A DNA stretch of 64,000 bases from Chryseobacterium gallinarum. GTDB taxonomy: Bacteria > Bacteroidota > Bacteroidia > Flavobacteriales > Weeksellaceae. Of the stretch, positions 4,049-46,892 are shown in pieces. The stretch is from assembly GCF_001021975.1 (NCBI RefSeq), contig NZ_CP009928.1:310001-374000 (forward strand). The letters are read 5' to 3'. Under the pieces are notes generated by a model. The model did no database searches. It saw only the letters and a list, made by a program, of their open reading frames with translations, and was not told the DNA's origin. Position numbers and translations under genes: made by a program. Within the stretch, counting starts at the first letter, position 1. Each line of letters starts with the position of its first letter.

Positions 4049-4080
4049 TCCCGAAAAAGCTTTACCGCTTATTCATCAAA

Positions 4081-4238
4081 GAAATGGGTTCTGCCTAACC
4101 GCAGATTAATAGGGAACCGTGTGAAAATCACGGACTGTCGCGCAACTGTAAGTAACTAAGGTCTTTATCAAGAGATCCACTATGCGAGGCATGGGAAGGG
4201 GATAAAAGATGTTACAAGTCAGGAGACCTGCCTATTTC
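4081..4238 (+). ncRNA. Cobalamin (B12) riboswitch
   Basis: The region carries the conserved blocks of the cobalamin aptamer in order: AGGGAACCG, GTGAAAATCACGGACTGTC, GCGCAACTGTAAG, and the B12 box around AAGTCAGGAGACCTGCC (4217-4232). The closing P1 stem is visible as GAAATGGG (4081-4088) with CCTATTTC (4231-4238), including one wobble pair. Riboswitches of this class normally shut off B12 uptake or synthesis genes, or B12-independent isozymes, when adenosylcobalamin is plentiful. Downstream lie a possible terminator (4291-4310), a 16-codon reading frame (4280-4330) and then an acyl-CoA thioesterase gene, not a B12 transporter. It is either a regulator of that thioesterase or an orphan left after loss of a transporter gene. 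Confidence 0.92.
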
Positions 4239-4279
4239 TGTAAACAAGAAACTTTCGCGATCTGAAGTTGATTGATCTG

Positions 4280-36192: not shown

Positions 36193-37866
36193 TTACTCCG
36201 GCTTATAAGAGTCTTTTAAGGTCACAGTTCTGTTGAATACAAAATTTGTATCCGTAGAATCCTGATCCTTCGTAAAATATCCTATTCTCTGGAACTGAAG
36301 AGGTTCCCCTACCGCAACATCTTTTAAAGACGGTTCAGCAAAGCCCTGAACTGTTGTTACAGATTCAGGATTAATAAAGTTTAAGAAGTCTACATCTTTT
36401 TCCGCATCCGGTTGTTCAACGGTAAACAGTTTATCGTAAATTCTTACTTCCACCGGAATCGCATGTTTTGCGGATACCCAGTGTAAAGTTCCTTTTACTT
36501 TTCTTAAACTTTCTTCTGTACCACTTCCTGACTTACTTTTTTCATCATAAGTAGCATAGATGGCCGTGATTTCTCCGTTTTCATCTTTCTCTACCCTTTC
36601 CGCCTTAATGATATAAGCTGATTTTAGACGGACTTCCCCACCCAGTTTCAGTCTGAAGAATTTATTGTTCGCTTCTTCTTTGAAGTCTTCACGTTCAATA
36701 TATAATTCTCTGGAAAAAGGGATTTCCCTTGTTCCTGCATCTTCCTGTTCCGGATTATTTTCGGTCTCCAGCCATTCTTCCTTATCTTCAGGATAGTTCT
36801 CTATTATTAATTTAACAGGATCTACAACCGTCATTACACGTTTTGCTACTTTATTCAGGTCTTCCCGTACGCAGAAATCGAGCAACTGGATTTCGATCAG
36901 GTTTTCTCTTTTTGCTACACCTACTTTTTCAATAAAGTTCCTGATAGCCGTGGGAGTAAAGCCTTTTCTTCTCATTCCCGAAATTGTAGGCATTCTCGGA
37001 TCATCCCATCCTGTCACTACTCCTTCTGCTACAAGCCTTTGCAGCTTTCTTTTGGAAGTGATCATATAGGAAACATTCATCCTTGCAAACTCCCTTTGTT
37101 TTGGAGCGACTTTGGATTCGTCATACACCTGCTCCAGATACCAGTTATAAAGAGGTCTATGATTTTCAAACTCCAATGAACATAGCGAATGAGATACCTG
37201 CTCCAGGTAATCCGATTCACCATGAGCCCAATCATACATAGGATAGATCTTCCACGCGGTACCTGTTCTGTGGTGGGGCCTTTTCAGTATTCTGTACATC
37301 ACAGGGTCACGCATATTCATATTAGGTGATACCATATCGATTTTTGCACGAAGTGACATTGCCCCTTCCTCGAATTCACCGTTTTTCATTCTTTCGAATA
37401 AATCAAGGGATTCTTCAACAGGACGGTTTCTATATGGAGATTCTATTCCCGGCTCTGTAGGATTCTTTCTTTGCTCTGTAATAACTTCAGACGGCTGCTC
37501 ATCTACGTAAGCTTTTCCTTCTTTAATCAATTGCACTGCCCATTCGTAAAGCTGCTGGAAGTAGTCTGATGCATACAATTCCTTATCCCACTTGAACCCA
37601 AGCCATTCAACGTCTTTTTTGATAGAATCTACGAATTCCTGTTCTTCTTTTTCAGGATTCGTATCGTCGAAACGAAGGTTTACGGGAGCATTGTATTTTT
37701 CACCCAAACCAAAATTGATGCAGATGGCTTTTGTGTGCCCTACATGCAGATATCCATTCGGTTCAGGGGGAAAACGGAAACGAATCTGATCTCTTTTCAG
37801 TCCGTTTGCCAAATCATCTTCTATAATTTGCTCAATAAAATTGAGTGATTTTTTTTCTTCTTCCAT
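36193..37866 (-). CDS. glnS: Glutamine--tRNA ligase
   Basis: A 557-residue class I aminoacyl-tRNA synthetase charging tRNA-Gln. Class I motifs are PPEPNGYLHVGH (HIGH box, near residues 32-43) and MITSKRKL (KMSKS variant, near 268-275). The C-terminal anticodon-binding beta barrels follow. Length and motifs match bacterial GlnRS (about 555 residues). The frame extends to 37977, but the ATG at 37866 gives the conserved start. A monocistronic unit with its own terminator. Confidence 0.95.
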   Translation of the reverse strand: MEEEKKSLNFIEQIIEDDLANGLKRDQIRFRFPPEPNGYLHVGHTKAICINFGLGEKYNAPVNLRFDDTNPEKEEQEFVDSIKKDVEWLGFKWDKELYASDYFQQLYEWAVQLIKEGKAYVDEQPSEVITEQRKNPTEPGIESPYRNRPVEESLDLFERMKNGEFEEGAMSLRAKIDMVSPNMNMRDPVMYRILKRPHHRTGTAWKIYPMYDWAHGESDYLEQVSHSLCSLEFENHRPLYNWYLEQVYDESKVAPKQREFARMNVSYMITSKRKLQRLVAEGVVTGWDDPRMPTISGMRRKGFTPTAIRNFIEKVGVAKRENLIEIQLLDFCVREDLNKVAKRVMTVVDPVKLIIENYPEDKEEWLETENNPEQEDAGTREIPFSRELYIEREDFKEEANNKFFRLKLGGEVRLKSAYIIKAERVEKDENGEITAIYATYDEKSKSGSGTEESLRKVKGTLHWVSAKHAIPVEVRIYDKLFTVEQPDAEKDVDFLNFINPESVTTVQGFAEPSLKDVAVGEPLQFQRIGYFTKDQDSTDTNFVFNRTVTLKDSYKPE

Positions 37867-38020
37867 TAAAGTTGCTTTTATTTTATGCAAAAAAAGTGGT
37901 ACAAAGTTACGGAAAAATAAATCTTTATGAAAGTCATAATTTAAAAGCTTATTAATTGCTAATTCAGTATTTTTCATTAATTTAGAGCAAAACTAAAACC
38001 ACTGTAACAAATTAAAAATC

Positions 38021-39151
38021 ATGGCTGTTTATATACTAAGCAATCGGAAGATTGTACGTTATAAAGGAGAAAGGGTCGATTCTTTTTCCAACGACGAATA
38101 CTCAATCCCCAATTTCAGGATTGCTAAATGTAATTTCGACAATTACAAAGAACCCAGTGCCCAGGCAAAAAAAAAGAAAGATTACACCAACAGGAATATA
38201 CTAGATTACAAACTTTTCTCCGAACCCGAAAAACAAGGATACCAGGAAGTACTTGACGTTTTACTCAGTGAAAAAGGCATAAAACCATCAGTATTAACAG
38301 CCAATAATTTAGGTGGAACACAACGGATGTTCTATGAATTATACAAAAATATGTCGTCAGCAAAGGACAGAAGTGATGTATTAATTTTCATTCATGGCTA
38401 TGCCTATACGTTCGATGATGAGTTAAAAGCTATAATTGATCTGAAAAAACTCTTCATTGACAATCCAGCTTCTCCCGTAGAACATATCCTTTTTGTAAGC
38501 TGGCCGGCCTCCAGCAGCCTTGTTCCGCTGACTTATTTTGATGACAAGGCATCAAGCATTAATTCCGGAACCTCATTATTAAGATTATTCTATTTCTACA
38601 CTCAGTTCCTAAAAGATATTTTTTCCAGCCGCGACCTGGCCCCATGCAATCAAAGGATCCATATTATGGCTCATTCTATGGGAAACAGGGTACTTCAAAG
38701 CATGCTGTACAGTCTTAAAAGCGAAAATATCCTACGGGTAATTGATCAGGTCATTCTGCTGAATGCCGATGTTACCTATAAAGTATTTGAAGACTCTGAA
38801 AATTCATTTAATAAACTACCTTTATTGGCTAACCGGATTTCTGTTTATCTGAACAGGCAGGATGTCATTCTGGGGATTTCACAGTTTACCAAAAATATCC
38901 TTACCCCAAGACTTGGTAAAAACGGACCCAGCAATATTGAACCATTTAAGGATATTGTTTCCATTATTGATTGTACGTTTGTAAAAGACGACCTTTTAAA
39001 CAGCTTTAAATTTGAAGTGGGAAATCATTGGGGATACCTTTCAAGTTCGCAGGTTCAAAGTGATATTTTCCAAAATTTATACGGAATAGATAGGAATTTA
39101 ATCACCAATAGAATCAAAAATAACGAAAACATTTTCACAATTATTGCTTAA
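38021..39151 (+). CDS. Alpha/beta hydrolase, DUF900-like
   Basis: A 376-residue protein with a serine-hydrolase core: DVLIFIHGYAYTFDDEL near residues 117-133 (oxyanion side), the nucleophile elbow AHSMGN near 218-223, and a late histidine region EVGNHWGYLSS near 341-351. This layout fits the DUF900 alpha/beta hydrolases. No signal peptide is present and the N-terminal 110 residues are unassigned. The substrate is unknown. It is a single gene transcribed away from glnS; the sigma-54 promoter and tiny peptide ORF follow it. Confidence 0.78.
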   Translation: MAVYILSNRKIVRYKGERVDSFSNDEYSIPNFRIAKCNFDNYKEPSAQAKKKKDYTNRNILDYKLFSEPEKQGYQEVLDVLLSEKGIKPSVLTANNLGGTQRMFYELYKNMSSAKDRSDVLIFIHGYAYTFDDELKAIIDLKKLFIDNPASPVEHILFVSWPASSSLVPLTYFDDKASSINSGTSLLRLFYFYTQFLKDIFSSRDLAPCNQRIHIMAHSMGNRVLQSMLYSLKSENILRVIDQVILLNADVTYKVFEDSENSFNKLPLLANRISVYLNRQDVILGISQFTKNILTPRLGKNGPSNIEPFKDIVSIIDCTFVKDDLLNSFKFEVGNHWGYLSSSQVQSDIFQNLYGIDRNLITNRIKNNENIFTIIA

Positions 39152-39178: not shown

Positions 39179-39193
39179 TTAACCGTATGTTAA
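39179..39193 (+). promoter_or_regulatory. Dyad upstream of the sigma-54 promoter
   Basis: TTAAC (39179-39183), five bases, GTTAA (39189-39193). It lies about 20-35 bases before the -24 element and could be an activator or regulator site. Short dyads arise by chance in AT-rich DNA. Confidence 0.25.
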
Positions 39194-39214: not shown

Positions 39215-39230
39215 TGGCACAGAGATTGCC
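39215..39230 (+). promoter_or_regulatory. Sigma-54 (-24/-12) promoter
   Basis: TGGCAC (39215-39220), five bases and TTGCC (39226-39230) match the RpoN consensus TGGCAC-N5-TTGC exactly, with GG and GC spaced 12 bases apart. Initiation would fall at about 39241, giving a 24-base leader before the ATG at 39265. No alternative TANNTTTG box lies at this position. Confidence 0.72.
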
Positions 39231-39264
39231 AATTCATAAACAAGGGAATTACAATTTTTTTATC

Positions 39265-39342
39265 ATGAAACAGATTAAAAAAAAGCTTTCTCATATCGTA
39301 AAATATATCAAGAAAGCGATTTTCGTAAAAGATGTGATTTAA
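39265..39342 (+). CDS. 25-residue cationic amphipathic peptide ORF
   Basis: ATG at 39265 encodes 25 residues beginning MKQIKKKLSHIVKYIKK and ending FVKDVI, with eight Lys, one Asp and one His (net charge about +7). Hydrophobic residues I4, L8, I11, V12, I15, A18 and I19 fall on one helix face and Lys on the other, the profile of a cationic membrane-active peptide. The frame is open to an ATG at 39187, but that start lies upstream of the predicted sigma-54 transcription start, so the short form is favoured. No family is recognised; a stem-loop lies downstream at 39421-39447. It stands alone between the hydrolase gene and menC. Confidence 0.55.
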   Translation: MKQIKKKLSHIVKYIKKAIFVKDVI

Positions 39343-39420
39343 ATAAGGGACAATAACTTATAAAATTATAGATATCCGAGCCTAGCATTACTACTTCAGC
39401 TTATTACCGTACCGGAGATT

Positions 39421-39447
39421 AATTCCTACAATTCTATTGCAGGAATT
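39421..39447. other. Stem-loop downstream of the 25-residue peptide ORF
   Basis: AATTCCT-a-CAAT-tct-ATTG-c-AGGAATT folds into an 11-bp stem with one mismatch. There is no T tract on either strand, so it may end or stabilise the peptide transcript, or that of menC from the other side. The rest of 39343-39558 shows nothing I can name. Confidence 0.4.
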
Positions 39448-39558
39448 GGTTCCTAATGCTCATTACATGATAAATGTTTGATTAGCTGTATGAACTGAAG
39501 CCGGATCAGGCAACAGAGTGCTGGACATTGGAATAATCTTTAATCCTGATTATGTTGC

Positions 39559-40563
39559 TTATTTTCTGAACCACAACAGCTCGTTTCTGAGTTCAAGATG
39601 TGATTCAAAGTTATTGACAAATAAAGCTCCGGTACCTAATCCCTGAGGCATCGGATTTTTTTTGGTAAAAGTATACTGGGCAATAGCATTCAATCCTATA
39701 TTACTTTCCAGTGCAGAGGTGATCCACCAGCCAATATTCTGGTTTTCGGCTAAAGAAATCCATTCATCTGAACCGGAAAACCCACCCACTAAAGCTGGTT
39801 TTAAGATAATATACTGCGGTTTTATACATTCTAAAAGCCTTTTCTTTTCTTCTGCATCAACTATACCGATCAATTCTTCATCCAGAGCAATCGGCGTAGG
39901 CGTGGTAGCACATAATCCGGCCATATCATCCCAACGTCCAGCTTTAACAGGCTGTTCAATGGAGTGAATATCCAAATCTGCCAGTTGCTGCAAAACAATT
40001 ACCGCTTCATCTTTGCTGAAACCTCCATTGGCATCAACACGCAATTCCAACTGATCTTTAGAAAACTTTTTCCTTAATTTCTGAAGGATAATATGTTCTT
40101 CTTGCCAATTGACTCCTATTTTTAATTTAATACAATGGAACCCTTTTTCCAGTTTGTCCTGAATCTGTTCTTCCATATATCCGGCATCACCCATCCAGAT
40201 CAGACCATTGATGGTAATGGCAGATTTTCCCTCCGTAAATTCGCTCGGAAAATATAGGTTGCCTCCGTTTTTTAAATTTAAAAGAGCCTGTTCATATCCA
40301 AACCATATGGATGGAAAATCCTTTAATTCCTCTTTTAAGTAGGCAGAATTTTGTGTAATATTGTTACAAAGCCATTTTAACCGGTCTTCATAGTCTGGTC
40401 TGTCATCAAAACTCAACCCTCTGAAAATTGCACACTCTCCTGTTCCTTTCTTACCCTCTTCTGAAATTTCCAGAATGAAAGTTTCCTTATCAAGCAAAAC
40501 GCCGCGAGATGTTCCACTCGGGCGCTTAAATTGTAATAAGTATTTAAAATATGATGCTTTCAT
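39559..40563 (-). CDS. menC: o-Succinylbenzoate synthase
   Basis: A 334-residue enolase-superfamily enzyme that dehydrates SHCHC to o-succinylbenzoate in menaquinone synthesis. Active-site blocks appear in order: FHCIKLKIG (Lys pair), LRVDANGGF (first metal Asp), HSIEQP (Glu), IALDEELIG (Asp) and YIILKPALVGG (second Lys). Its start codon shares one base with the fbp stop (TAATG), so the two genes are translationally coupled, although their pathways differ. Other men genes in the window are isochorismate synthase and the MenI-like thioesterase near 9-10.5 kb. Dipeptide epimerase is the alternative; the short length and blocks favour MenC. Confidence 0.88.
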   Translation of the reverse strand: MKASYFKYLLQFKRPSGTSRGVLLDKETFILEISEEGKKGTGECAIFRGLSFDDRPDYEDRLKWLCNNITQNSAYLKEELKDFPSIWFGYEQALLNLKNGGNLYFPSEFTEGKSAITINGLIWMGDAGYMEEQIQDKLEKGFHCIKLKIGVNWQEEHIILQKLRKKFSKDQLELRVDANGGFSKDEAVIVLQQLADLDIHSIEQPVKAGRWDDMAGLCATTPTPIALDEELIGIVDAEEKKRLLECIKPQYIILKPALVGGFSGSDEWISLAENQNIGWWITSALESNIGLNAIAQYTFTKKNPMPQGLGTGALFVNNFESHLELRNELLWFRK

Positions 40564-45113: not shown

Positions 45114-45186
45114 GGTTTCTTAGCTCAGTTGGTAGAGCAATGGATTGAAAATCCATGTGTCCCTGGTTCGATTCCTGGAGAAACCA
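45114..45186 (+). tRNA. tRNA-Phe (GAA), copy 1
   Basis: A 73-nt tRNA: acceptor GGTTTCT/AGAAACC, D-arm AGCTCAGTTGGTAGAGC, anticodon loop TTGAAAA in stem ATGGA/TCCAT with anticodon GAA, T-arm CCTGGTTCGATTCCTGG (TTCGATT loop) and discriminator A. CCA is not encoded. It has its own promoter and terminator. Confidence 0.96.
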
Positions 45187-46819: not shown

Positions 46820-46892
46820 GGTTTCTTAGCTCAGTTGGTAGAGCAATGGATTGAAAATCCATGTGTCCCTGGTTCGATTCCTGGAGAAACCA
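46820..46892 (+). tRNA. tRNA-Phe (GAA), copy 2
   Basis: Identical over all 73 bases to copy 1, with anticodon GAA in the loop TTGAAAA and the same flanks. It would be fully functional. Confidence 0.96.

Follow-up and report, generated by a model that had tools for sequence, protein, structure and literature searches.

A conserved 25-codon peptide gene behind a sigma-54-type promoter in Chryseobacterium

A 25-codon peptide gene in the window (the whole 64,000-nucleotide stretch of DNA analysed here) was found to belong to a peptide family whose profile matches 172 of 173 Chryseobacterium genomes, nearly always once per genome, and which is under strong selection despite its tiny size. Genes of such size are often skipped by gene finders. 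The conserved peptide gene is real, and it is very likely doing something useful. Its promoter, reading frame, amphipathic helix, fixed C-terminus and synteny are all evident when relatives are compared, and it is a clean candidate target for RpoN, in a phylum with little established sigma-54 biology. The explanation that we favour, and which we consider somewhat probable when taken as a whole, is that the gene belongs to the Chryseobacterium core, has been inherited vertically and encodes an RpoN-regulated peptide that would lie on the inner membrane and dock on a partner by its C-terminus; the mechanism is one that we infer.

Promoter and reading frame of the peptide gene

The promoter letters, TGGCACAGAGATTGC, lie at 39215-39229 (+) and match TGGCAC-N5-TTGC, with GG at 39216 and GC at 39228, exactly 12 apart, as the first-pass annotation had claimed when it proposed a sigma-54 (-24/-12) promoter with ideal spacing. 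The exact pattern occurred once in the window against 0.19 sites expected, and at least one site arose in 17 of 100 shuffles; with one mismatch allowed, the window held 9 sites, fewer than the 12.8 expected. Since a single exact match is unsurprising in the window alone, the case for the promoter rests on relatives. The pattern TGGYRY-N5-TTGY was present no more than 75 nt upstream of the peptide in 152 of 172 Chryseobacterium genomes (151 of 171 by script, plus G079, which the script pattern missed and which was read by eye), and elsewhere in those loci it appeared 4 times in 759,662 strand-bases, or approximately 0.0003 per 75 nt. The proposed promoter is thus conserved in most of the genus as well as correctly spaced.

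Setting the predicted transcription start 12 nt past the C of the -12 element places it at 39241 and leaves a predicted leader of 24 nt at 39241-39264 (+), with an A at -3 of the start codon; both positions had been given earlier and are correct. The predicted leader measured 23-25 nt in 97 of 151 motif-bearing genomes, and A was found at -3 in 154 of 171 relatives, a base reported to favour initiation in Flavobacterium johnsoniae (PMC6847099). It is very improbable that a housekeeping promoter drives the gene and that the TGG/TTG match is incidental: an overlapping TTGCCA-N18-TACAAT match does occur at 39226-39255, and 20 of 172 genomes keep the gene without the strict sigma-54 motif, but a TATAAT-like hexamer matching at 5-6 of 6 positions was seen in only 60 of 151 motif-bearing genomes, whereas the -24/-12 motif was found in 151 of 171. 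Promoter hexamers of the E. coli type also differ from the Flavobacteria consensus.

The peptide gene itself occupies 39265-39342 (+), stop codon TAA included, and encodes MKQIKKKLSHIVKYIKKAIFVKDVI, which contains eight lysines and one aspartate and has a net charge of +7, as first described. A longer in-frame ATG does exist at 39187 and would give 51 residues. However, only 13 of 151 motif-bearing relatives have an in-frame ATG lying 5' of the -12 element, on which count the 51-residue ORF was rejected, and an in-frame stop closed the frame downstream of the -24 element in 96 of the 151 (the frame was open through -24 in 55). The scarcity of upstream ATGs and the frequency of in-frame stops indicate that the short frame is the conserved one.

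Peptides from the 171 genomes parsed were 25 (n = 164) or 26 (n = 7) residues long and comprised 131 distinct sequences. Length differences were always whole codons, and the extra residue was near the C-terminus in the two 26-mers inspected by eye (loci L024 and L112). A check of codon substitution across relatives, suggested at the outset, gave a dN/dS of 0.205 overall, 0.38 for codons 2-13 and 0.043 for codons 14-25, based on 3236 pairs of similar coding sequences (the pairs share ancestry, and the figures describe rather than constitute a statistical test). Entropies at the three codon positions were 0.64, 0.41 and 1.08 bits, with third positions the most variable. Among the 164 peptides of 25 residues, F20 was invariant, and K16 (160), I19 (161), V24 (149) and I25 (142) predominated. 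Purifying selection on the frame is accordingly well supported by these sequence comparisons.

These data also bear on whether the transcript acts mainly as a regulatory RNA, with the ORF incidental or secondary (a dual-function RNA). A 3' stretch (TATCCGACC...) is kept in many of 50 aligned main-clade loci and a stem-loop follows downstream, as such an RNA might show, but third codon positions are the most variable, dN/dS is far below 1, lengths change by whole codons, and inspection by eye of the divergent loci L107-L118 did not reveal the 3' stretch; we give this explanation extremely little credence. In the window, a stretch at 39370-39400, approximately 30-40 nt past the stop codon (TATCCGACCC...ATTACTTTA), is kept in many main-clade loci.

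Distribution, genomic setting and promoter turnover

When 59 genomes (the source genome included) were searched with the DNA of the region, 31 matched, all of the same genus, and promoter and peptide were both kept across 30 aligned loci. The only genome of the genus missed by the peptide profile, G167, is a 320-contig assembly; a second profile, run on 30 mostly low-scoring genomes including this one, matched 29 and missed it again. One genome (G115, loci L133 and L149) carries the peptide gene twice, the additional copy being diverged and preceded by TGGAAT-N5-TTGC.

The locus is syntenic across the genus. Downstream, at 39559-40563 (-), lies a convergent MenC-like gene of the enolase superfamily (MR_MLE_C over the cut-off, MenC_N below it), and on the other side, at 36193-37977 (-), is a presumed GlnS-like gene, also a syntenic neighbour. 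One or other of these neighbours was found at 82 of 83 loci with flanks (some genomes counted twice; the MenC-like match at L003 is a short stretch), the exception being the partly masked L067, where the hydrolase alone is visible. This hydrolase, a DUF900 alpha/beta hydrolase identified by domain search at 38021-39151 (+), is encoded between the GlnS-like and peptide genes in the window; it was not found at the same place in several relatives and is therefore not an obligate partner by position. The next downstream genes in the window are convergent, so the peptide transcript is probably monocistronic. A stem-loop at 39417-39451 (+) may mark its end (fold z -2.5; 5 of 200 shuffles fold as well); it lacks a T-run in the source genome, a similar stem was recognised by eye in some relatives, and a consensus terminator scan found none at this locus. 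Two further candidates were rejected: a leader or attenuator peptide, as the downstream gene is convergent rather than co-directional, and a type I toxin, as this is a core gene at a fixed place, nearly always in single copy, and searches of plasmids and phages with the window's peptide returned nothing. Elsewhere, the window contains a cobalamin riboswitch aptamer at 4069-4249 (+; 107 bits) and two equally scoring tRNA genes separated by 1.7 kb (45114-45186 and 46820-46892).

Conservation across relatives, named in the first-pass annotation as the refuting test, divided frame from promoter: the frame is kept in all 172 peptide-bearing genomes, but 20 of these lack the strict motif or have it in changed form, although the peptide is retained. 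Two of the 20 are near misses, namely G090 (CGGCAT...) and G088 (...TTGA). On a FastTree phylogeny of the MenC-like protein, the motif was the root state and its distribution required five changes, whereas shuffling gave 15.8 on average and never fewer than 13; this is a single-gene tree without support checks, built from 95 sequences (74 from motif-bearing genomes, 17 from genomes lacking the motif, and 4 sister-genus sequences coded as unknown), which omits genomes with only short fetched stretches and over-represents low-scoring ones. An ancestral promoter with five changes on this one-gene tree implies that the peptide outlives its promoter. We regard the presence of a sigma-54 promoter before the peptide gene, ancestral in the genus, as well supported, although predicted from sequence.

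Loci that have kept the peptide and from which the upstream sigma-54 motif is gone comprise L124, L126-L129, L131, L135, L136, L138-L141 and L145-L147. These motif-less loci appear as a natural case of promoter rewiring, and the lineages lacking the promoter make regulation of the peptide testable. A link between promoter loss and loss of rpoN was rejected, as all 20 genomes without the strict motif have an rpoN match. The rpoN gene was detected in the source genome and in 172 of 173 genomes of the genus, so absence of the sigma factor does not account for the promoter losses; moreover, because the 20 genomes keep both peptide and rpoN without the motif, sigma-54 control is not indispensable. 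Only one of the 173 genomes (G031, locus L025) has no match to the RpoN DNA-binding domain, though it is 99% complete. Its motif is weakened at -24 (TGGCGT-N5-TTGC), and it is the only one of 151 with a G at position 5, a single case.

Beyond the genus, recognisable peptides were detected within the same family in one genome of genus g106 and five of g21 (E 3e-8 to 2e-6), and other genomes of both genera gave weaker matches or none. Seven sister-genus loci (L180-L185 and L349) had within reach a MenC-like gene (in six), a presumed GlnS-like gene (six) and a presumed FBP-like gene (five). Inspection by eye showed TGGYAY upstream in six of the seven, but with TGG in place of the TTGY expected at -12. 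A 23-residue match in another sister-genus genome (G427), located by GlnS and with no sigma-54 site recognisable by eye, is a possible family member. Searches of 296 and 395 genomes of the order yielded nothing convincing outside the family; the profile used for the 395 already held sister-genus peptides, and hits in the sister genus are partly by construction. In other families, small AT-rich genomes gave weak matches that were attributed to lysine-rich noise.

Peptide character and proposed function

Across the family, the mean hydrophobic moment was computed to peak at 100 degrees per residue, as for a helix, and over residues 1-20 a total of 116 of 131 distinct peptides were more one-sided than their own shuffles (p < 0.05). 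For the window's peptide, one-sidedness was significant within residues 2-20 (p = 0.003) but not across the full 25 (p = 0.07). The one-sided hydrophobic face noticed initially is thus, by computed moment, a conserved amphipathic helix. The cationic label fared less well: the window's own peptide has the net +7 given above, but charge ranges from +2 to +8 among the 171 genomes (positive in all), so a strongly cationic character is not the conserved trait. The conserved design instead appears to be an amphipathic helix at residues 1-20 plus a fixed C-terminus, a combination suggesting a helix that rests on a membrane (or on a partner) together with a C-terminal docking motif.

Database searches returned little. 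Pfam and NCBIfam gave no convincing family (a lone PAS_8 match of 0.036 in 1 of 20 members was taken as chance), and among PDB sequences four chains matched over short SNF4 and RING-protein stretches (best E 0.014), also taken as chance. The window's peptide had no match in plasmid and phage collections at E 1. In the open-licence PMC literature we found no paper on the peptide and no match for the motif letters, and papers there on sigma-54 with Chryseobacterium appeared unrelated to it; within that literature, the statement that the peptide had not been described in this setting holds.

Small size, conserved amphipathicity and a net positive charge in all 171 genomes would also suit a secreted or membrane-permeabilising peptide (antimicrobial or modulin-like) that acts on other cells. 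Secretion, which had been raised at first, found no support by eye: no signal-peptide-like stretch and no neighbouring exporter or immunity gene were recognised. Charge falls to +2 in some species, the near-frozen part is the C-terminal half rather than the lysine-rich N-terminal half, and the gene is a genus-wide core gene at one fixed place. The dN/dS of 0.04 in the C-terminal half is easier to reconcile with binding to a fixed partner than with an antimicrobial role, and we judge a secreted peptide to be decidedly unlikely. A regulator with a soluble target (e.g., RNA polymerase, an activator or a chaperone), whose helix would bind without anchoring to a membrane, draws on the same sequence evidence, the fixed C-terminus likewise suggesting a protein partner; a one-sided helix with flanking lysines, however, suits a membrane surface equally well or better, and we consider a soluble target unlikely. 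From the original proposal of a regulated peptide, possibly secreted or membrane-acting, or a small regulator, the sigma-54-type promoter and the selected frame remain, and the cationic, secreted reading is weakened.

The machinery for sigma-54 control, which had been put forward as a check, is encoded in the genome. Besides rpoN, there are three matches to AAA+ activator-type proteins at E < 1e-67 and nine over the cut-off in all; because control genomes for this activator family all match too, only the three strong matches were counted. By eye, one is a receiver-domain protein that ends soon past the AAA+ domain, one starts directly with AAA+, and the third, a sigma-54-type response regulator (L033, G000:C1:2843716), is encoded just upstream of a gene that we presume to be kdpA-like. 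Upstream of the -24 element, no block was conserved across all loci (single positions reached at most 1.2 bits) and no activator site was recognised; a GTTAAA-rich block was seen in the main clade only. The source genome contains 26 strict sigma-54 matches, of which 10 are intergenic by script, the peptide promoter among them. Intergenic strict or relaxed sites precede genes for Lon (presumably COG0466), an outer-membrane beta-barrel protein, YtxH, SPW, DUF3667, DUF6702 and a polysaccharide deacetylase. Total sites were little above the reversed-pattern control in this one genome (26 vs 20, and 30 vs 25), so single sigma-54 sites are unproven. PMC12316311 describes genes for chaperones and proteases, including COG0466, as enriched for predicted sigma-54 promoters across Flavobacteriia and related classes.

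According to the membrane-docking explanation that we favour, the peptide gene, probably monocistronic, would be transcribed by RpoN (sigma-54) RNA polymerase with an AAA+ activator, in response to a signal read by one activator. Envelope or protein-folding stress is our guess for this trigger, because candidate sigma-54 sites precede the lon, outer-membrane beta-barrel, YtxH and SPW genes. The N-terminal helix would lie against the cytoplasmic membrane on its inner side. The conserved tail, Y-I-K-K-A-I-F-V-x-D-V-I-COOH, would dock on a partner and adjust the partner's activity. The likeliest class of partner may be a membrane protease or other membrane enzyme, bound in the manner of SpoVM or lambda CIII. 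We hold a regulatory function at the membrane with moderate confidence. Possible, though doubtful, is the broader proposal that RpoN controls a membrane protease, or another enzyme of the envelope, by way of these peptides, which would form a new family of micropeptides that sit on the membrane surface and dock by their C-termini. The gene would then be a core module of the whole genus that has exchanged its promoter several times in evolution and kept the last 12 residues nearly frozen. Should a membrane enzyme prove to be the target, the peptide would add another example of micropeptide-based stress control.

Comparison with known systems

SpoVM of Bacillus, an FtsH-associated sporulation peptide, is very small and is made under a dedicated alternative sigma factor. 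The new peptide is like it in having an amphipathic helix, in being very small and in its probable control by an alternative sigma factor, but it belongs to another phylum and regulon; the helix of SpoVM and its inhibition of FtsH are described in PMC1838920. The same source describes, in phage lambda CIII, a 24-residue region, predicted to form an amphipathic helix, that is sufficient for activity, CIII being an inhibitor of the membrane protease FtsH. CIII is a phage protein with its helix embedded in a longer polypeptide, whereas the new peptide is encoded by a core chromosomal gene and, in the window's version, matched no phage sequence. No family in Pfam or NCBIfam links the new peptide to SpoVM or CIII.

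MgrB is described in PMC8404706 as a small protein from a stress regulon that acts on a membrane partner. It differs in being a membrane protein of 47 residues, whereas the new peptide has 25 and, by eye, no membrane-spanning stretch. Among Bacteroidota sigma-54 promoters, predicted targets in Flavobacteriia include proteases and chaperones according to PMC12316311, in the main text of which the phrase 'small peptide' has 0 occurrences. The promoter of the peptide gene is like these in its -24/-12 elements with the same spacing and in the presence of rpoN and activator genes, but differs in that several Chryseobacterium lineages appear to have replaced it.
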